Shown one piece after another: positions 2,966 to 35,579 of a DNA stretch of 45,240 nucleotides (position 1 is its first letter; the number at the start of each line of letters is the position of its first letter). The notes under the pieces are model-generated. The model did not search any database and had not been told where the DNA came from. It saw only the letters and a list, made by a program, of their open reading frames with translations. This DNA is from Rhodocyclaceae bacterium (lineage in GTDB: Bacteria > Pseudomonadota > Gammaproteobacteria > Burkholderiales > Rhodocyclaceae). The stretch spans positions 37,616 through 82,855 of the forward strand of contig RXJP01000039.1 in NCBI GenBank assembly GCA_003963315.1, in the 5' to 3' direction. Both the position numbers and the translations under genes were made by a program.

Positions 2966-3095
2966 TTAACCCCCCCCACCCCCTACTTCGACCAGGCTCA
3001 GCACAGGCTTGTCAGGGGGGAGTTCGCGCCGCGATGCATTGAGCAGCTGGCCCCTCCCCTGACAAGGGGAGGACGGGAGGGGTTGCGGTTCTCAT
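2966..3095. repeat. Dispersed GC-rich repeat between livH and livM
   Basis: The 220 bases between livH and livM hold a C-run, a TTCGACCAGGCTCAG half-element, then a CCCCTGACAAGGGGAGG hairpin followed by GGGAGGGGTTGCGGTT. Closely related sequences occur at 26473-26574, 26723-26770, 31298-31385 and 35466-35579. The short open frame over it is composed mostly of repeat and resembles no protein. The element separates two genes that are usually tightly linked. Confidence 0.8.
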
Positions 3096-17492: not shown

Positions 17493-18071
17493 ATGTTCCT
17501 CGAGATCCTGCTCTTCCTTCTCGACACCGTCTTCAGTTTCTTCGCCTTCGCCCTGTTGGCCCGTTTCGCCATGCAATGGGCGCGGGCCCCGTTCCGCAAC
17601 CCCATCGGCCAGTTCATCATCGCCGTCACCGATTGGATGGTGCGCCCCGCACGGCGGGTGATCCCCTCCGCCTGGGGCCACGACCTGCCCAGCCTGGTGC
17701 TGGCCTGGCTGATTCAGGGCATGTACCTGGGCATCGCCTACGGCCTCACCCTGGGCATCAACGCTACCCTGCACGCCAGCGGCGTGGTGGCCCTGCTGGC
17801 CGTGGTGGAAGTGCTCAAGCTGGCCTGCCGCCTGGCCTTCGGCGTGCTCATCGTCAGCATCATCTTTTCCTGGGTCAATCCCTACGCGCCCCTGGCCCCG
17901 CTGTTCAACACCCTGGCCGAACCCCTGCTGCGTCCCTTCCGCAAGCTGATCCCCCCCATCGGCGGCGTGGACCTGTCGCCCATGGCGCCCCTGCTCCTTA
18001 TCCAGGTGCTGCAAATGCTGCTGGCCGCCCTGCGCGGCGCGCTGCTGCCAGGGTTGTTGCCCGGGTTTTAG
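17493..18071 (+). CDS. yggT: YggT family membrane protein
   Basis: A 192-residue inner-membrane protein with two copies of the YggT unit, each a hydrophobic hairpin followed by a conserved amphipathic stretch. The first contains FAMQWARAPFRNPIGQFI, the second IVSIIFSWVNPYAPLAPLF and LLRPFRKLIPPIGGVDLSP. Function is not firmly known; the family has been linked to osmotic or potassium stress and to cell-envelope organisation. The ATG at 17493 lies one base after the proC stop, so it belongs to the yggS-proC-yggT operon. Confidence 0.9.
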   Translation: MFLEILLFLLDTVFSFFAFALLARFAMQWARAPFRNPIGQFIIAVTDWMVRPARRVIPSAWGHDLPSLVLAWLIQGMYLGIAYGLTLGINATLHASGVVALLAVVEVLKLACRLAFGVLIVSIIFSWVNPYAPLAPLFNTLAEPLLRPFRKLIPPIGGVDLSPMAPLLLIQVLQMLLAALRGALLPGLLPGF

Positions 18072-18086
18072 GAACGTGTCGATTAA

Positions 18087-18190
18087 GTCCCTACCGTTCG
18101 GGCTGAGCTTGTCGAAGCCTGTCCTGAGCTTCGTCGAAGGGCCCTTGCGCCACAAGGCGTGCACTTCGACAGGCCCAGTGCGAACGGACT
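18087..18190. repeat. Dispersed TCGAAG-type inverted repeat between yggT and yggU
   Basis: The outer arms CCGTTCGGGCTGAGCTTG and CAGGCCCAGTGCGAACGG are imperfect complements, and TCGAAG units plus an inner CCCTTGCG...CAAGG hairpin lie between them. The same layout recurs inside chpA at 29504-29578, and half copies lie at 14745-14800, 19808-19832 and about 26646-26683. It splits yggT from yggU, which are often directly adjacent. Confidence 0.85.
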
Positions 18191-18218
18191 TGTTCTGTAT
18201 GTCCCCAATTAACAAGCA

Positions 18219-18512: not shown

Positions 18513-18543
18513 GGCGGGTGATGTTGTCACAATGATTGAAAAT

Positions 18544-18619
18544 GCCGTCATTCCCGCGAAAGCGGGAATCCAGGTTTCCCGGCTACCGCATAGATTCCCG
18601 CTTTCGCGGGAATGACGGC
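18544..18619. repeat. 27-bp perfect inverted repeat of the GTCATTCCCGCGAAAGCGGG type
   Basis: Arms at 18544-18570 and 18593-18619 are perfect reverse complements around a 22-base spacer, and each arm is itself a short hairpin (CCCGCGAAAGCGGG). A sister element with changed but compensated bases lies at 25705-25779. Units of this type are widespread in proteobacterial intergenic DNA. Confidence 0.9.
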
Positions 18620-18686
18620 AGCGCGAGATGCGCTGCCCATCGACACGGCCCGCCTAAACCAAGGCGCCATCCTCAGGAGGATGTCC

Positions 18687-19780: not shown

Positions 19781-19807
19781 AACCTGCTCCGCAAACACTG
19801 AAAAATT

Positions 19808-19848
19808 CCGTTCGCGTTGAGCCTGTCGAAACGCTTGTTCGGCGTTTC
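19808..19848. repeat. Half copy of the TCGAAG-type repeat with adjoining hairpin
   Basis: CCGTTCGCGTTGAGCCTGTC at 19808-19827 matches one arm of the 18087-18190 element. A separate 7-bp hairpin, GAAACGC with GCGTTTC (19828-19834 and 19842-19848), follows directly between two convergent genes and may help terminate either transcript. Confidence 0.55.
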
Positions 19849-19849
19849 C

Positions 19850-20434
19850 TTAGGTCTTGGGGCCGTTCAGCACCCGCTCGATGCGCCGGTCCGGCACCAG
19901 CCAGGCCAGGGCCACCAGCACGTAGATGCCCAGGGAGAGCCATGACGACACAAAGGCCAGCGGGATGGCGGCGGCGTAAAGGATGGGCGACGCCTTCCCC
20001 TTCCAGTCCCGGCCCACGGCCCGCTTGAGCAGGGAGTCCACCCCCTGGGAGCGGATGATGAGCTGTTGCAACACAAAGTAGGCAATGGCGGCCATCAACA
20101 GCACCGCGCCGTACACCGCGGCCGGCATCGCCGAAAAATGGTTCTCCCCCATCCAGCCCGTGGCGAAGGGAAACATCGACAGCCAGAACAGCAAATGCAG
20201 GTTGGCCCACAACATCGGCCCCGTCACCCGGTGCACCGTGTGCAGCATGTGGTGGTGGTTGTTCCAGTAGATACCCACGTAGATGAAGCTCAGCACATAG
20301 CTCAGGAACACCGGCAGCAGCGGCGCCAGGGTGTCGATGCCATCGCCGTGGGGCACCTTGAGTTCCAACACCATGATGGTGATGATGATGGCGATCACGC
20401 CGTCACTGAAGGCTTCGAGTCGGTTTTTTTCCAT
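19850..20434 (-). CDS. TMEM175 (DUF1211) family potassium channel-like membrane protein
   Basis: A 194-residue membrane protein with six predicted helices. It opens MEKNRLEAFSDGVIAIIITI; the FSD motif in helix 1 is the signature of the TMEM175 family, whose bacterial members form tetrameric potassium-selective channels. The histidine-rich YWNNHHHMLHTVHRV after helix 2 is also typical. The physiological role in bacteria is unclear. It is GC-rich like the chromosome. It stands directly downstream, in the same orientation, of the last attC site of the cassette array, but no attC follows it, so I treat it as the chromosomal flank and not as a cassette. Confidence 0.87.
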   Translation of the reverse strand: MEKNRLEAFSDGVIAIIITIMVLELKVPHGDGIDTLAPLLPVFLSYVLSFIYVGIYWNNHHHMLHTVHRVTGPMLWANLHLLFWLSMFPFATGWMGENHFSAMPAAVYGAVLLMAAIAYFVLQQLIIRSQGVDSLLKRAVGRDWKGKASPILYAAAIPLAFVSSWLSLGIYVLVALAWLVPDRRIERVLNGPKT

Positions 20435-25704: not shown

Positions 25705-25779
25705 CGTCATCCCCGCGCAGGCGGGGATCCAGTGTCTTTGCCCTAGCGTCGCTGGATCCCCGCCTGCGCGGGGATGACG
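25705..25779. repeat. 28-bp perfect inverted repeat of the GTCATCCCCGCGCAGGCGGG type
   Basis: Arms at 25705-25732 and 25752-25779 are perfect reverse complements around a 19-base spacer. It is the same class as the element at 18544-18619, with substitutions present in both arms, so pairing has been kept while the sequence drifted. Confidence 0.9.
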
Positions 25780-26423: not shown

Positions 26424-26783
26424 GGGAGGAGGTGATCGGGAAGCTGTCTTGGGCGGTACAGATGGGCGAACACCGCAACCCCTCCCGTCCTCCCCTTGTC
26501 AGGGGAGGGGCCTGCTGCGCAAGATGTCGCCCCTCGAACCCCCCCCTGACAAGGGGGGCCGGGGGGGTTACGGTTCACAGCAAGTCTATTGCCGGAATTT
26601 GTGAGACGAGTTTTAAGGAAACTCCGGACTCGTCCCTCGCGGTCCAGGCTGAGTCTTTCGGCAAGCTCAGCGCGAACGGAATGGGTCGGGATTTGCCCAC
26701 GGTGGGTGGGCCGGCTTGTTAAAACCGGAACCCCCCCGGCCCCCCTTGTCAGGGGGGGGTGTGGGGGTGCCGGCTTGAGCGTT
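26424..26783. repeat. Repeat-filled intergenic region downstream of chpA
   Basis: This 360-base region has no credible gene. It contains an inverted pair of the CCCCTGACAAGGGG element (26473-26510 against 26537-26574), a TCGGCAAGCTCAGCGCGAAC half-element near 26650-26680, and a third copy at 26723-26770 with long C and G runs. It lies between two minus-strand genes and may act as a strong transcription barrier after chpA. Confidence 0.85.
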
Positions 26784-29700
26784 CTAGCCAACGTAATCCC
26801 CGATCAGCTTCAGCAATTCTTCTTCGTCATAGGGCTTGCCGAGGAAGTGTTCCACGCCGATGCCGGCGGCGACGTTGCGGTGCTTGTCCGCCGTGCGCGA
26901 GGTGATCATGATCACCGGCAGGTCGCGCAGGCGTGGGTCGCTGCGCAGGCTGCGCACCAGCTCGAAGCCGTCCATGCGCGGCATCTCGATGTCCGCCAGC
27001 ACCACCGCCGGTAGTTCTTCGTTCAATTGTTCCAGGGCGTCCACGCCATCCTTGGCGGTGAGCACCCGGTAGCCGGCCCGCTCCAGCAAACGGCCGGTCA
27101 CCTTGCGCACGGTGAGGGAGTCGTCCACCACCAGCACCGTGGCGGGCTGGGGGATCGGCGCCGGCGGCGCCTGCACCGGGGCCATGGGCGCCAGGCCGCC
27201 GCTGCGGCTGTGGTGCAGGCGGTGGTAGCGTTCCGCCAGGGCCACCGGGTTCACGATCAGGGCGATCTCGCCGTCCCCCAACACCGTGGCGCCGGCGATG
27301 CCGGGCAGCTTTTCCAGTTGCGGGCCGATGGCTTTCATCACCACTTCCTGCTTGCCCACCACGGCGTCCACTTCCAGGGCGATCTGTTGCGGGCCGCCCC
27401 GCAACAACACGCGCCAGTGGCGGCGCTGCGGGCGCGGCACGGCGTCTTCGCGGCCGAGGAGGCGCGGCAGGTAATGCCAGGGGTAGTGGCGGCCCTGGTG
27501 TTGCAGGCTGCCTTCCCGGCGCAGGGCTTCCATGTCGTCGGCATTCATTTCGTCGGCCTGCTCCACCATGCCGGCGGGGATGCCCAGGCAGCGGGCGTTG
27601 CCTTCTTCGTCATTGCCCACCTTCACCAGCAATGCCTGGCCGATGGCCAGGGTGACGGGCAGGGTGAGCTGGAAGCGACAGCCCTGGTGCGCTTCGCTAT
27701 GCACCTCGATGCGGCCGCCCAGGGCCACCACTTCGTTGCGCACCACGTCCAGGCCCACGCCGCGCCCGGCCAGGCTGGAGAGGGACGAGGCGGTGGAGAA
27801 CCCCGGTTGGAAGATGAGCTGGATCAGGGATTGTTCGTCGAGGGCAGCCTCGGCGGTGATGAGGCCGCTGCCCCGGCCCTTCTGGCGGATGCGGGCCAGA
27901 TCGAGGCCGGCGCCGTCATCCGCCAGTTCGATGCCCACCTCCCCGCCGTGCTGGCTGAGGCTGAGCGTGATGGTGCCGGCATCGGCCTTGCCCAGCCGGC
28001 GGCGTTCCGCCAGGGCTTCGACGCCGTGCACCAGGGCGTTGCGCAGCAGGTGCTCCAGGGGCGCGATGAGGCGTTCCAGCACCGAGCGGTCCATTTCCGT
28101 CTGCTCGCCCTCGAGCTTGAGCACGGCCTGCTTGCCCAGTTCCTTGGCGGTCTGGCGCAGCACCCGTTGCAGGCGTTCGGCGATGGCGGCGAAGGGCACC
28201 ATGCGCACCCGCAACAGGCCCAGGGACAGGTCGCGGTTGAGGCGGGCCTGGGCCACCAGGGTGGTTTCCGTGTGCTCCAAACCCCGCAGCAGGGCGTGGT
28301 GCACGGTGGAGACGTCTTCCACGCTCTCGGCCATCATCCGCGTCAGTTCCTGGAAGGCGGTGAAGCGGTCCATCTCCAGCGGGTCGAAGCCGGCGTGCTG
28401 GTCGTTGGCTTGGGCCAGGCGCGAACCCATCTGGCTTTCCGCCTGGATCTCGATTTCCCGCAACTGGTGGCGAAGGCGGCCCACGTTTTCGGTGAGGTCG
28501 CCCAGGGCCGATTTGAAATTGCGCAACTCGGCTTCGATGCGGCTGCGGGAGATGGCGATTTCGCCGGCCTCGTTGATGAGCTGGTCCACCCGGTCGGAGC
28601 GCACCCGCAACTGGGTGCCCTGGCCGGCCTCCGCCATCTCGGCAGGCGGTGTGGCGGAAGCGGCAGCGATGTCCGCGCCTTCGGCGCTTTGGGGCGTGGC
28701 GGCAGTCGTTGTAGCGGCGGGCCGGGCCGGACGCAGGGCGTCGATTTCGGCCATCACTTTGTCGCAGGCGTCTTCCAGCTCGGCGATGAACACGGCGGTG
28801 GGATGGCGGCAATCGGCGATGCGCGTTTCCAGGCCGTGCACCCGGTCGCCGATGGCGAAAGCGCCCACCATGCGGGCGCCGCCCTTGAGGGTGTGCAACA
28901 GGCGGCGCAACTGCCGTGGGGCGGCGTCGTCTTCCGGATCGGCGCGCCAGAAGCGGAGCTGCTCGGCGATGGCGGCGGCGGCTTCCTCGCTTTCCTCCAA
29001 AAACAGCGGCAGCAACTGGGTGTCGATGGTGACGCCGGGGGCAGATACCGCAGGCACCTTGGGCACCGGTTCCGCCGCCGGGGCGGTGATCTGCGCTGGG
29101 GCTGTACTGTCCGCCGGGGGCAGTGTTTCAAAAGCCTGCGCCAGGGGCCGCCACTGGGGGGCGGGCGCGTTGGCGTTCAATTGGTCGACCCAATGCCGCA
29201 GCAGGTCGCGGGCTTGTTCCAGCAGCGTCTGCAAGGGCCCGCTGATCGGCTGCCCGGCGGCGCGCCAGGCGTTCAGTCTTTGCTCCACCGCCCAGGCGCA
29301 GGTGCCGAAGTCGTCGAGGGACACCATGCGAGCGGAGCCCTTGAGGGTGTGGAAGCTGCGTCGCACGTCGGCCAGGAGGGTGCTGTCACCGGGCTGGCCG
29401 CGCAAGGCCGGCAGGGCGGCGTCCAGGCTGGCGAGCACTTCCCGCGCTTCGTCGAGGAAGATGGCCAGCAGTTCCTGGTCGATGGCACTTTGCTTGCCGA
29501 GTTCGTTCGCACCGAGCTTGTCGAAGTGCGGGTTCCCTTGCGTAGCAAGGGGGGCTGCGACAGGCCCAGCCTGAACGGAGAAGGGCGGGAGATTTTCCAG
29601 CAGGTTCCGGTGTTCCTGCCCTCGGGACAGGTGGTCATTGAACAGGTTGAGGGCCGCCAGCCGCTCCGCCACGGCTTCCGCCAGGGCCTGGCGCCGGGAA

Positions 29701-31268
29701 GCGTCCTGGACGCAGCCGAGACCGAGGCAGCCGGCCAGGATATCGTCGGCGATGCGGGATGCCGCTGCCTGGTCCAGCACGGTGAAGGCGCCTGCCACTT
29801 GTTTCAGCAGCAGGTGCGCCGGTTCCATCAGTTCCCGGTGTTCGGGGTTGCGGTAACCGGCGTCGAGGATTTGTTCCACCTGTTCCAGGTTGATGCCGAT
29901 TTCCTTGCATACCTGCGCCATCAGGCGCTTGTCCTGGGCGCGGCGGGCCACGGCTTCCAGTTGCGGCCGTTCTTCGCCGGCCGGCACCTCGCCCCGCAAC
30001 AGGGCGGCAAGGCGGGCGCTGATGAGGTCCACCTGCCGGGCGAAGGCGATGTCCTGCACGGCGCCGGGGCGGCCCAGGTCGTCCACCGCGCCTTCCAGCA
30101 GCAGCAAGGCCGCCACCATTTCTTCGGCCAGAGCCTCGTGGTAGGCGAGGGGATTCTTGCGCAGCAGGTTGGCGCCGTTGCCGATGGCGGCGGCAAGGCG
30201 GGTGACATCCATGCGTTCCAGACCGTCCGCCAGTTCGACGATGCGCTGGCTGGCTTCGTGGAAGGGCGGCAGGGCGGCGGCGGTGCCGCTGCAAAAGCGG
30301 TCCCAATCCTCCTGGGCGGCGGCGATGTGGTTCGTCAGTTGTTGCAGGCGCTGGATTCTTTCCTGCTCGCGGCTGGCGTCGGTGGCTTCCCGCGGGATCA
30401 GGTCGGCTAGGCGGTAGGCGGCGCGGACGATGCGCACCTGTTCGCTATCCCGGGCCGCCACCGCCACTTGGTACAGCACGTCGCGCAGCAGGGTGACGTC
30501 TTCTTCCGCGCCGCCCTGGGCCAGGGTGTCGATCTGTGCGCTGAGGCGCTGGAACAGGCCGCCCAGCAGGTTCTGCAATTCCGGGTCGGTGATGATCTCG
30601 GCCAGGGAATCGAAGAAGGCCAGGGCCACCCACCACAGGGCGCGTTCATTGGGGTTGCTGCGGGTCTGCTCGACGATGGCGATGGAGTTGCGCATGTCCC
30701 GCAGGCCGCTGCTGTCCACCGTGCCGTTGTGCTTGAGCCACTTCTGCCGGCCCCGCTCGAAACCCAGGCGGGCCGCCTTGAGCCGCGCCGTGAGGGCGTC
30801 CGCGGCCAGGGGTTCGGGTTCCATGTCGCGCCGGGGCGGGCGCTGGGAAAGATCGGGGAAGAACAGCTCGGCCTGGGGCGGCGCCTTGCGTCCCGCGGCC
30901 AGCACTAGCTCCCGATACACCGGATAGAGGGCCAGGGGCTGGTCGGCGGCGCCGGCCATGAGGCCGTCCAGGTAGCTGCGCAGGGTGGCGAGGCCGGTGA
31001 GGGCGGTGTCGCGCAACTCGTCGTTCCAGGCCACGCGGTTGTCCGCCACGGCTTCCAGCAATTGCTCCACCGCCGTGGTGAATACGGTGACGCCCTCCAG
31101 GCCGACGATGGCCAGGGCGCCCTGGCATTGGTGCAGGCAGCCCCGCGCTTCCTGAATGCTTTTGGCATCGGGGTTGGCGGTGAGGAATTCACCGGCCCGG
31201 GTCAGGGCCAGATCGATCTCCCCCTTGACCCAGGAGAGGGGGCCGGTGTCGATGTCAGCAGCGGCCAT
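26784..31268 (-). CDS. chpA: ChpA/PilL-type hybrid CheA histidine kinase of the type IV pilus chemosensory system
   Basis: A 1494-residue multidomain kinase. An FimL/Hpt-like N-terminus (EARGCLHQCQGAL) has no canonical phosphorylation motif. Two true Hpt domains follow with SFHTLKGSARM (His640) and LLHTLKGGARM (His792). Next come the dimerisation helices (DRVDQLINEAGEIAISRSRI) and a CheA-type ATPase (HLLRNALVHGVEAL, LADDGAGLDL, GRGVGLDVVRNEV). A CheW-like domain follows, then a receiver domain with Asp1426 (LADIEMPRMDG) and the lysine in FLGKPYDEEEL. It receives signals from PilJ through PilI and phosphorylates PilG to control pilus extension and twitching. Residues about 564-589 are encoded by a dispersed repeat. 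It is last in the pilG-pilI-pilJ-chpA cluster. Confidence 0.93.
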   Translation of the reverse strand: MAAADIDTGPLSWVKGEIDLALTRAGEFLTANPDAKSIQEARGCLHQCQGALAIVGLEGVTVFTTAVEQLLEAVADNRVAWNDELRDTALTGLATLRSYLDGLMAGAADQPLALYPVYRELVLAAGRKAPPQAELFFPDLSQRPPRRDMEPEPLAADALTARLKAARLGFERGRQKWLKHNGTVDSSGLRDMRNSIAIVEQTRSNPNERALWWVALAFFDSLAEIITDPELQNLLGGLFQRLSAQIDTLAQGGAEEDVTLLRDVLYQVAVAARDSEQVRIVRAAYRLADLIPREATDASREQERIQRLQQLTNHIAAAQEDWDRFCSGTAAALPPFHEASQRIVELADGLERMDVTRLAAAIGNGANLLRKNPLAYHEALAEEMVAALLLLEGAVDDLGRPGAVQDIAFARQVDLISARLAALLRGEVPAGEERPQLEAVARRAQDKRLMAQVCKEIGINLEQVEQILDAGYRNPEHRELMEPAHLLLKQVAGAFTVLDQAAASRIADDILAGCLGLGCVQDASRRQALAEAVAERLAALNLFNDHLSRGQEHRNLLENLPPFSVQAGPVAAPLATQGNPHFDKLGANELGKQSAIDQELLAIFLDEAREVLASLDAALPALRGQPGDSTLLADVRRSFHTLKGSARMVSLDDFGTCAWAVEQRLNAWRAAGQPISGPLQTLLEQARDLLRHWVDQLNANAPAPQWRPLAQAFETLPPADSTAPAQITAPAAEPVPKVPAVSAPGVTIDTQLLPLFLEESEEAAAAIAEQLRFWRADPEDDAAPRQLRRLLHTLKGGARMVGAFAIGDRVHGLETRIADCRHPTAVFIAELEDACDKVMAEIDALRPARPAATTTAATPQSAEGADIAAASATPPAEMAEAGQGTQLRVRSDRVDQLINEAGEIAISRSRIEAELRNFKSALGDLTENVGRLRHQLREIEIQAESQMGSRLAQANDQHAGFDPLEMDRFTAFQELTRMMAESVEDVSTVHHALLRGLEHTETTLVAQARLNRDLSLGLLRVRMVPFAAIAERLQRVLRQTAKELGKQAVLKLEGEQTEMDRSVLERLIAPLEHLLRNALVHGVEALAERRRLGKADAGTITLSLSQHGGEVGIELADDGAGLDLARIRQKGRGSGLITAEAALDEQSLIQLIFQPGFSTASSLSSLAGRGVGLDVVRNEVVALGGRIEVHSEAHQGCRFQLTLPVTLAIGQALLVKVGNDEEGNARCLGIPAGMVEQADEMNADDMEALRREGSLQHQGRHYPWHYLPRLLGREDAVPRPQRRHWRVLLRGGPQQIALEVDAVVGKQEVVMKAIGPQLEKLPGIAGATVLGDGEIALIVNPVALAERYHRLHHSRSGGLAPMAPVQAPPAPIPQPATVLVVDDSLTVRKVTGRLLERAGYRVLTAKDGVDALEQLNEELPAVVLADIEMPRMDGFELVRSLRSDPRLRDLPVIMITSRTADKHRNVAAGIGVEHFLGKPYDEEELLKLIGDYVG
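29504..29578. repeat. TCGAAG-type dispersed repeat lying in frame inside chpA
   Basis: This 75-base segment begins CGTTCGCACCGAGCTTGTC and ends CAGGCCCAGCCTGAACGG, with an inner CCCTTGCG...CAAGG hairpin, the same layout as the intergenic element at 18087-18190. Its length is 25 codons, so the chpA frame is preserved and it is translated, giving SVQAGPVAAPLATQG and HFDKLGANE in the linker just before the Hpt domain with His640. Confidence 0.85.
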
Positions 31269-31297
31269 GATTGACTATGACGGATTGCGTGAAAGTG

Positions 31298-31385
31298 GCC
31301 TCCCCCCTGACAAGGGGGGCCGGGGGGGTTACGGTTTTCGATCCGTGCCAACCCCTCCCTGTCCCTCCCCTTGTCAAGGGAGGGA
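31298..31385. repeat. Inverted pair of CCCCTGACAAGGGG elements between pilJ and chpA
   Basis: CCCCCTGACAAGGGGGGCC with its GGGGGGGTTACGGTT tail (31300-31336) is opposed by an inverted copy ending CCCCTTGTCAAGGG (31349-31385). The pair is nearly identical to that at 26473-26574, so chpA is bracketed by two like elements. Confidence 0.85.
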
Positions 31386-34579: not shown

Positions 34580-35455
34580 ATGGCCTCGTCTTCCTCTTCC
34601 CCCCCTCCCTATCTGCCGCCCCTGGTGCTGACCTTCGCCGCCACCGATCCCACCGGCGGCGCGGGCATCCAGGCCGACATCCTGACCCTGTCCAGCATGG
34701 GCTGCCACGCCCTGGCGGTGGTGACCGCCATCACCGTGCAGGACACCTCGGGGGTGGAGGGCATCCTGCCCATGGACCCGGACTGGGTGGCCGACCAGGC
34801 CCGCAGCCTGCTGGAGGATGTGCCCGTGGCCGCCTTCAAGCTGGGCATGCTGGGCAGCGTGGAGAACATCGCCGTCATCGCCGAGATCGTGGCGGACTAT
34901 CCCGACATTCCCCTGATCCTCGATCCGGTGCTGGCCTCGGGCCGGGGCGACCAGTTCGCCGATGAGGAAATGGTGTCGGCCATGATCGAGCTGCTGCTGC
35001 CGGAAACCACCATCCTCACCCCCAACAGTCTGGAGGCGCGGCGCCTGGCCCAGAACGACGAGGATGACGACAATGGGGACGCCCGTCCCGGCCTCGATGT
35101 CTGCGCGCTTCGCCTGATCGAATTCGGCGCCGAGTACGTGCTGATCACCGGCACCCACGAAAACACGGCCCAAGTGGAGAACCTGCTCTATGGCCCCCAG
35201 GGCCTGATCCGCACGGACAAATGGGAGCGCCTGCCCGGCAGCTACCATGGTTCCGGTTGCACCTTGGCTTCCGCCATTACCGCCAGCCTGGCCGGCGGCG
35301 CCGACATCGAAGCCGCCGTGCAGGAAGCCCAGGAGTACACCTGGCAGGCCCTGGCCGCCGGCTTCCGGCCGGGCATGGGCCAGCACATTCCGGACCGCCT
35401 CTTTTGGGCCCGCGGTGAAGAGGGCGATGACGGCGGCGACGATGCCGGCAAATAG
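34580..35455 (+). CDS. thiD: Hydroxymethylpyrimidine/phosphomethylpyrimidine kinase
   Basis: A 291-residue ribokinase-fold enzyme that phosphorylates hydroxymethylpyrimidine and its phosphate to the diphosphate for thiamine synthesis. TFAATDPTGGAGIQADI is the substrate loop, and YHGSGCTLASAI holds the anion hole and catalytic Cys usual for ThiD. The N-terminal Ser/Pro stretch and the acidic insertion NDEDDDNGDA near 155-165 are additions to the core. The ATG at 34580 is chosen; an in-frame ATG at 34541 is possible. The next gene is thiE, so the two join the pyrimidine and thiazole halves of thiamine phosphate. Confidence 0.93.
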   Translation: MASSSSSPPPYLPPLVLTFAATDPTGGAGIQADILTLSSMGCHALAVVTAITVQDTSGVEGILPMDPDWVADQARSLLEDVPVAAFKLGMLGSVENIAVIAEIVADYPDIPLILDPVLASGRGDQFADEEMVSAMIELLLPETTILTPNSLEARRLAQNDEDDDNGDARPGLDVCALRLIEFGAEYVLITGTHENTAQVENLLYGPQGLIRTDKWERLPGSYHGSGCTLASAITASLAGGADIEAAVQEAQEYTWQALAAGFRPGMGQHIPDRLFWARGEEGDDGGDDAGK

Positions 35456-35465
35456 GCTCCCCACG

Positions 35466-35579
35466 AACTCCCCCCTGACAAGGGGGGGTGGGGGGGTTAT
35501 AAATCCACGCCGATTGACCCCAACCCTTCCCCGTTCCTCCCTCCTTCAACTAGGCTCAGGGCCGGCTTATCAGGGGAGT
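35466..35579. repeat. Dispersed GC-rich repeat between thiD and thiE
   Basis: CCCCCCTGACAAGGGGGGG with a G-run and GGTTATAA tail is followed by a TTCAACTAGGCTCAGGGCC half-element and CTTATCAGGGGAG. It is the same composite as the livH-livM element. The remaining bases before the thiE start at 35588 are too few for a separate promoter. Confidence 0.8.

Follow-up and report, generated by a model that had tools for sequence, protein, structure and literature searches.

An in-frame copy of a dispersed palindromic repeat in the chpA gene of a Rhodocyclaceae bacterium, with related copies in other genes

A dispersed palindrome inside chpA

The DNA analysed here (the window) is a 45,240-nt stretch of the genome of a Rhodocyclaceae bacterium. 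Its reverse strand carries chpA (26784-31268), which encodes a CheA/ChpA-type hybrid kinase of 1494 residues in which Pfam recognizes two Hpt stretches, HATPase_c, CheW and a response regulator. Genes in this study were called with a custom codon-usage caller trained on this genome, not with a published annotator. Two inverted 24-nt arms lie inside the chpA open reading frame, each with two mismatches to the motif CTTCGACARGCYCAGNNCGAACGG. In coding order, the first arm (29555-29578) reads SVQAGPVA, for which the form typical of the family is xVRxEPVE, and the second (29503-29526) reads FDKLGANE. The loop between them (29527-29554) has a small hairpin of its own, and all of these parts lie on the reverse strand, as does the Pfam Hpt domain that follows the repeat-encoded linker (29196-29474, residues 599-691).

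The motif belongs to an abundant repeat family. At three or fewer mismatches it matches the 3.77-Mb assembly 61 times, while the reversed pattern does not match at all. At two or fewer mismatches there are 37 places, of which 32 are intergenic and five are in genes. Alignment of 21 intergenic copies reveals a longer element, in which outer inverted repeats flank the inner arms and their loop. The common short intergenic form is ∼121 nt long, with outer inverted repeats near TTAGGGAAACRCTGAWYAAGT, 24-nt inner arms and a loop of ∼22 nt. Arm-to-arm lengths of the intergenic copies cluster at 70-73, 94 and 118 nt, roughly 24 nt apart, and the forms of ∼70, 94 or 118 nt are explained by optional modules of 24 nt. 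The outer repeat gives 23 matches (control, zero), every one of them at a place also matched by the family model described below. Folding of nine in-gene and 12 intergenic copies yields similar hairpin energies per base.

Family membership of the chpA element was assessed with a covariance model built from the 21 intergenic copies, from which every in-gene copy was excluded. The model matches the element in its coding-strand orientation over positions 1-124 of 124 (29480-29604, reverse strand) with 39.8 bits and a genome-wide E-value of 1.7e-6; the E-values of these models are rough. Because a model that holds no in-gene copy finds the element from end to end, the assignment is independent and does not reflect a chance resemblance. 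The two mismatches in both arms, and an arm-to-arm length off the common 70, 94 and 118 nt, would be expected if a coding linker merely happened to resemble the repeat. However, the arms occur in the right order and spacing, the control pattern is absent from the assembly and the model E-value already contradicts this reading, which we consider exceedingly improbable.

The preliminary description of this DNA had recognized in chpA an inverted-repeat element built like the intergenic copy at 18087-18190, placed before an Hpt domain and free of stops on the coding strand. All three points hold: arms and model agree on the architecture, the Hpt domain begins at residue 599, and the reading frame is open through the element, with both flanks aligning to homologues in one frame. 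The element had also been described as 75 bases long and thus a multiple of three. It is real, but it measures 76 nt from arm to arm (29503-29578) and 125 nt over the full model match, so the multiple of three stems from the boundary that was chosen.

The window holds further copies, all on the forward strand. The intergenic copy at 18066-18210, which is part of the model, scores 110.2 bits and has inner arms that span 94 nt (18094-18187). A single intergenic arm lies at 19808-19831, within a weak model match (19785-19855, E=0.015, genome-wide 0.83). Downstream of chpA, a degenerate intergenic copy (26611-26702, arm 26656-26679) is matched with E=1.1e-5 (genome-wide 6.0e-4). No Rfam family matches the 45,240-nt window at gathering thresholds, and no NCBIfam domain corresponding to the repeat peptide was seen in ten host proteins at E≤0.1, among the best 25 families listed for five of them.

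The ChpA linker

ChpA residues 564-589 are encoded by the repeat. An AlphaFold2 model of residues 380-702 (30 sequences, mean pLDDT 87.1, pTM 0.57) renders residues 560-597 as a 38-residue coil that links a helical domain to the Hpt helices, and pLDDT falls below 50 for residues 573-594. Most of the ChpA linker, which is predicted to be disordered, comes from the repeat. Being in frame within a short linker, the copy makes up most of this putative flexible tether, which could have arisen by exchange for a longer linker just as well as by a gain in length.

Comparison with homologues bears on these two alternatives. Among 109 chpA-homologue loci, 63 retain both anchors flanking the linker, and in these its length ranges from 15 to 293 residues with a median of 115. 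The linker here comprises 44 residues, a length that only five of the 63 match or fall below, and the net gain of about 25 residues suggested earlier is not seen. None of the 63 homologues carries the repeat linker peptide, and thus no relative was found whose linker is alike in protein and unlike the repeat in DNA. Likewise, no arm at three or fewer mismatches lies inside the matched gene at any of the 109 loci (1.32 Mb), which hold two arms, both outside the matched chpA. Among named homologues, the best-ranked records come from Rhodocyclaceae and other betaproteobacteria. Since identity to homologues reaches no more than about 57% even in the best segments and the linkers are not alignable, the boundary of the chpA insertion cannot be fixed.

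The linker appears to have been replaced, not lengthened. A rearrangement, either recombination between copies or a deletion beside one, might have swapped a longer low-complexity linker for a short repeat-encoded tether, an event that we regard as possible rather than probable. Consistent with such an exchange, the segment around QNLxxLQKDADLVAD that is common in many homologues is by eye absent here, the whole protein is shorter than most homologues (1494 residues versus mostly 1600-2200), and a copy in the gene for Sua5 is likewise without net gain. However, end points of a deletion are not visible at such distance, the linkers of homologues vary widely regardless, and the chpA copy covers the model in full, as an insertion would.

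The alignments of ChpA (26784-31268) also suggest that extra Hpt-containing stretches, found in relatives between two Hpt domains, are missing from this protein.

Copies in other genes and genomes

Five genes of this genome host a copy, encoding ChpA, HypF, Sua5, RecB and MutS. A scan of the other coding sequences had been proposed in the preliminary description, and it recovers the repeat in frame in the last four. Three of these copies, all outside the model, are matched with genome-wide E-values of 6.0e-13 (MutS), 4.1e-19 (RecB) and 1.4e-6 (HypF). In MutS, 30 residues (321-350) stand where the MutS of the solved structure 5x9w has two. Between conserved anchors the site holds 29 residues here. 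Of 28 relatives, 27 have one to nine residues there and the remaining one (G059) has 36; a short match in G063 that runs into the end of its contig (base 6361 of 6363) was left out of this count. By sequence comparison, the MutS copy is a clean insertion. HypF has 42 residues (389-430) versus three in the solved structure 4g9i. In RecB a full copy lies near residues 995-1034, a region over which E. coli RecB is unaligned, and a separate stretch of 58 residues (70-127) stands where E. coli has two. In Sua5 one arm is present, and comparison with archaeal Sua5 shows no net gain in length, which counts against simple insertion at that site.

Two additional palindromes were observed in these host proteins. 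The stretch at RecB residues 70-127 (L187) appears by eye to contain a 24-nt family module beside a palindrome like the CCCCCCTGACAAGGGGGG core, read in frame, in a region where the arm scan scored nothing. In the MutS of G059 (L318), an unrelated palindrome, CTCTCCCGC...GCGGGAGAGG, is read in frame at residues ∼338-375, the same site as the family insert here. The presence of unrelated palindromes at one site in two MutS orthologues makes peptide tolerance testable in a well-understood enzyme.

Counting this genome, 35 of 121 genomes have the arm at two or fewer mismatches. For seven of the others (G052, G059, G107, G109, G063, G117 and G001) the stretches around listed copies were covered, and for G120, 26 stretches covered 33 listed places of its 104 arms. 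Copies inside genes, at gene edges and in intergenic DNA number 9, 2 and 20 in G120; 4, 0 and 23 in G109; 1, 1 and 11 in G059; 0, 1 and 13 in G052; 0, 0 and 11 in G107; 1, 0 and 41 in G063; 1, 2 and 42 in G117; and 1, 0 and 10 in G001, with the in-gene places of G117 and G001 at the ends of open reading frames. Lineages therefore differ: some have many in-gene copies, whereas others equally laden with repeats have few. Since the stretches covered from G063, G117, G001, G052 and G107 hold few or none, in-gene placement is no general property of the repeat. G063 and G117 (loci L439-L498) are repeat-rich genomes, and the copies examined there are nearly all intergenic, unlike those of this genome and G120.

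The internal hosts in G120 are RecG, HtpG, an FAD oxidoreductase, UreC, UvrD, MutL, urea carboxylase and an RND permease. Those in G109 are lipoamide dehydrogenase, an AceE-like E1 protein (for which TIGR03186 names alpha-ketoglutarate dehydrogenase), a protein with weak TPR similarity and one unnamed protein. In G059 the host is MutS, with the family copy at a second site. Gaps relative to solved homologues accompany several of these copies: RecG has 34 residues where its homologue has four, the AceE-like E1 has 44 versus none, UreC has nine extra residues and HtpG about 16. MutS and HypF of this genome, together with these four hosts and MutS in related genomes, provide the best demonstration of the earlier proposal that a dispersed palindromic repeat is translated in frame in the manner known from Rickettsia; chpA does so less well.

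In-gene copies favour one reading frame. Of 19 left arms, 18 are translated in the xVRxEPVEx frame; with two frames open, the binomial p is 4e-5. This count keeps three places at the ends of open reading frames and leaves out, as chance, a three-mismatch match in L202. One of the other two frames (PFxLSLSK) is open and the third holds a TGA. The right arm (n=16) is read as STSSxRTx in ten cases, LRQAQxER in five and FDKLxxN in one, the chpA copy. The LRQAQxER frame, otherwise uncommon, is used for the arm in an RND permease of G120 (L299) and in a protein of G063 (L445) that resembles an RND permease by eye.

The preliminary description also predicted that in-gene lengths would be biased to multiples of three. 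The bias is present but modest: nine of 12 in-gene arm-to-arm lengths are multiples of three versus 5.8 expected (p=0.024, stratified by genome), and the chpA copy, at 76 nt, breaks the rule. The expected share was drawn from pairs of the same genomes, with G001 included. Leaving out G001 gives p=0.007 and pooling without stratification gives p=0.0004; we rely on p=0.024. The HypF and RecB pairs were off the automatic list of arm pairs because one arm of each is too diverged, and adding them gives ten of 14 versus 6.0 expected (p=0.008).

Such patterns might arise if the repeat were kept for the function of its host genes, as an mRNA hairpin that tunes translation or as a selected linker peptide. 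The strong hairpins that in-gene copies keep, the favoured frame and, modestly, the multiple-of-three lengths would agree with that proposal. Nonetheless, the host genes are unrelated, the MutS site is without an insert in 27 of 28 orthologues, and both arms of the chpA copy have decayed. Purging of harmful frames predicts frame choice equally well; it would leave such a pattern of frames and lengths with no need for a selected peptide function. We therefore find a host-gene function very unlikely, and purging of harmful frames may well be what causes the frame bias.

DNA-repair proteins make up six of the 19 internal hosts (MutS, RecB, MutS, RecG, UvrD and MutL), where the 19 are the 22 in-gene places minus three at the ends of open reading frames (L277, L494 and L383). 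The corresponding binomial p-values range from 2e-8 to 2e-4 under an assumed background gene share of 1-5%. Di Nocera and co-workers describe the same tendency towards repair genes for other palindromes (PMC3733652). Conceivably, the element is drawn to genes of mismatch and recombination repair (MutS, MutL, UvrD, RecB and RecG) or survives preferentially in them, and a slight weakening of these proteins relaxes surveillance against palindromes, so that in particular lineages insertion promotes spread and spread promotes insertion; we consider this scenario unlikely. The hosts would fit preference, tolerance and feedback on spread alike.

Loss of MutS is not supported as a correlate of repeat load, given that MutS was found in 29 of 30 chosen genomes (15 repeat-rich and 15 repeat-poor). 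The sole exception (G097) is repeat-rich, with 18 arms, and is a single case.

Proposed origin and relation to known palindromes

Two candidate sources of mobility were rejected. A RAYT-like Y1 transposase (PF01797) has no match in this assembly, which is 95.6% complete, and over 121 genomes its presence is unrelated to repeat load: it occurs in nine of the 17 genomes that have at least five arms and in 58 of the 104 others. An autonomous element with the same ends was not found at three or fewer mismatches, and the outer repeat is confined to elements of the family. No target-site duplication has been established.

Taken together, the chpA feature is very probably one copy of a non-autonomous MITE- or REP-like palindromic element whose in-gene survivors are in frame and at tolerant sites. 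Copies would land or recombine at many sites, perhaps moved by a transposase acting in trans, and within genes they would survive only in frame, where a floppy peptide is tolerated. The surviving frame would avoid the TGA of the left arm and nearly always be xVRxEPVEx. In ChpA, the flexible tether that joins the N-terminal helical domain to the first Hpt domain would now consist mostly of the copy, which is probably close to neutral.

Among the closest precedents are the Rickettsia palindromic elements (RPEs), palindromes of 105-146 bp that reportedly lie in frame within 19 reading frames of Rickettsia (PMC2229807). In accounts of these elements, described by Ogata and co-workers, their effect is considered neutral or slightly harmful (PMC2229807, PMC10969869, PMC3733652). 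Like RPEs (about 105-150 nt), the repeat described here is a dispersed palindrome translated in frame in unrelated conserved proteins. Judged by published descriptions of RPEs, it differs from them in belonging to another bacterial class, in being rich in G+C and in being mostly intergenic in this genome (32 of 37 places).

The GTAG and CGTC REPs are reported inside open reading frames of many species, including the betaproteobacterium Thauera (PMC3733652, Di Nocera and co-workers 2013). According to the same source, many hosts of these REPs and their dimers function in DNA synthesis and repair (uvrA, uvrD and recBCD), and two Xanthomonas recB genes carry palindromes at about the same site (PMC3733652). 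The present family resembles them in that short palindromes lie inside genes of betaproteobacteria, with repair genes among the hosts. It differs in that, by eye, neither the consensus of 21 copies nor the arm motif has a terminal GTAG or CGTC, in its outer 21-nt inverted repeats and 24-nt modules and, relative to the GTAG class, in that a RAYT (Y1 transposase) partner was not found here. MutS is among the hosts here, and the word MutS has no occurrence in the main text of PMC3733652. The earlier likening to the elements of Rickettsia is upheld in its core, although the palindromes of Thauera (PMC3733652) take away the novelty that had been seen in its betaproteobacterial setting.

Prokaryotic MITEs such as ERIC and NEMIS/Correia (PMC2229807, PMC10969869) share with this family a non-autonomous nature, terminal inverted repeats and occasional in-frame fusions, the last covered in a 2024 review (PMC10969869). 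Unlike for those elements, neither an autonomous partner nor a target-site duplication has been established for the family described here. A paper on hairworm mitochondria notes few reported cases of stable structures inside coding sequence (PMC6649704), and listings of further open-licence literature on intragenic palindromes offered nothing else that we judged relevant. The DNA motif and six repeat peptides have no match in the open-licence literature. Since intragenic palindromes are already published, we regard this as a new repeat family that displays a known phenomenon.

These findings add in-frame, protein-coding palindromes in Burkholderiales that come from a separate and widespread family, pass a measurable reading-frame filter and affect several DNA-repair proteins. 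They also carry a warning for annotation, in that segments of the VRPEPVEG or STSSGRTE type are derived from a repeat.

Other palindromes are present in the window. A second dispersed palindrome with a CCCCCCTGACAAGGGGGG core is mostly intergenic and occurs at 3048-3080, 26481-26575, 26723-26767, 31280-31338, 31356-31384 and 35448-35499. In addition, perfect 28-nt inverted repeats with CGTCATTCCCGC or CGTCATCCCCGC are found at 18543-18620 and 25705-25779, and these presumably resemble REPs of the CGTC type.
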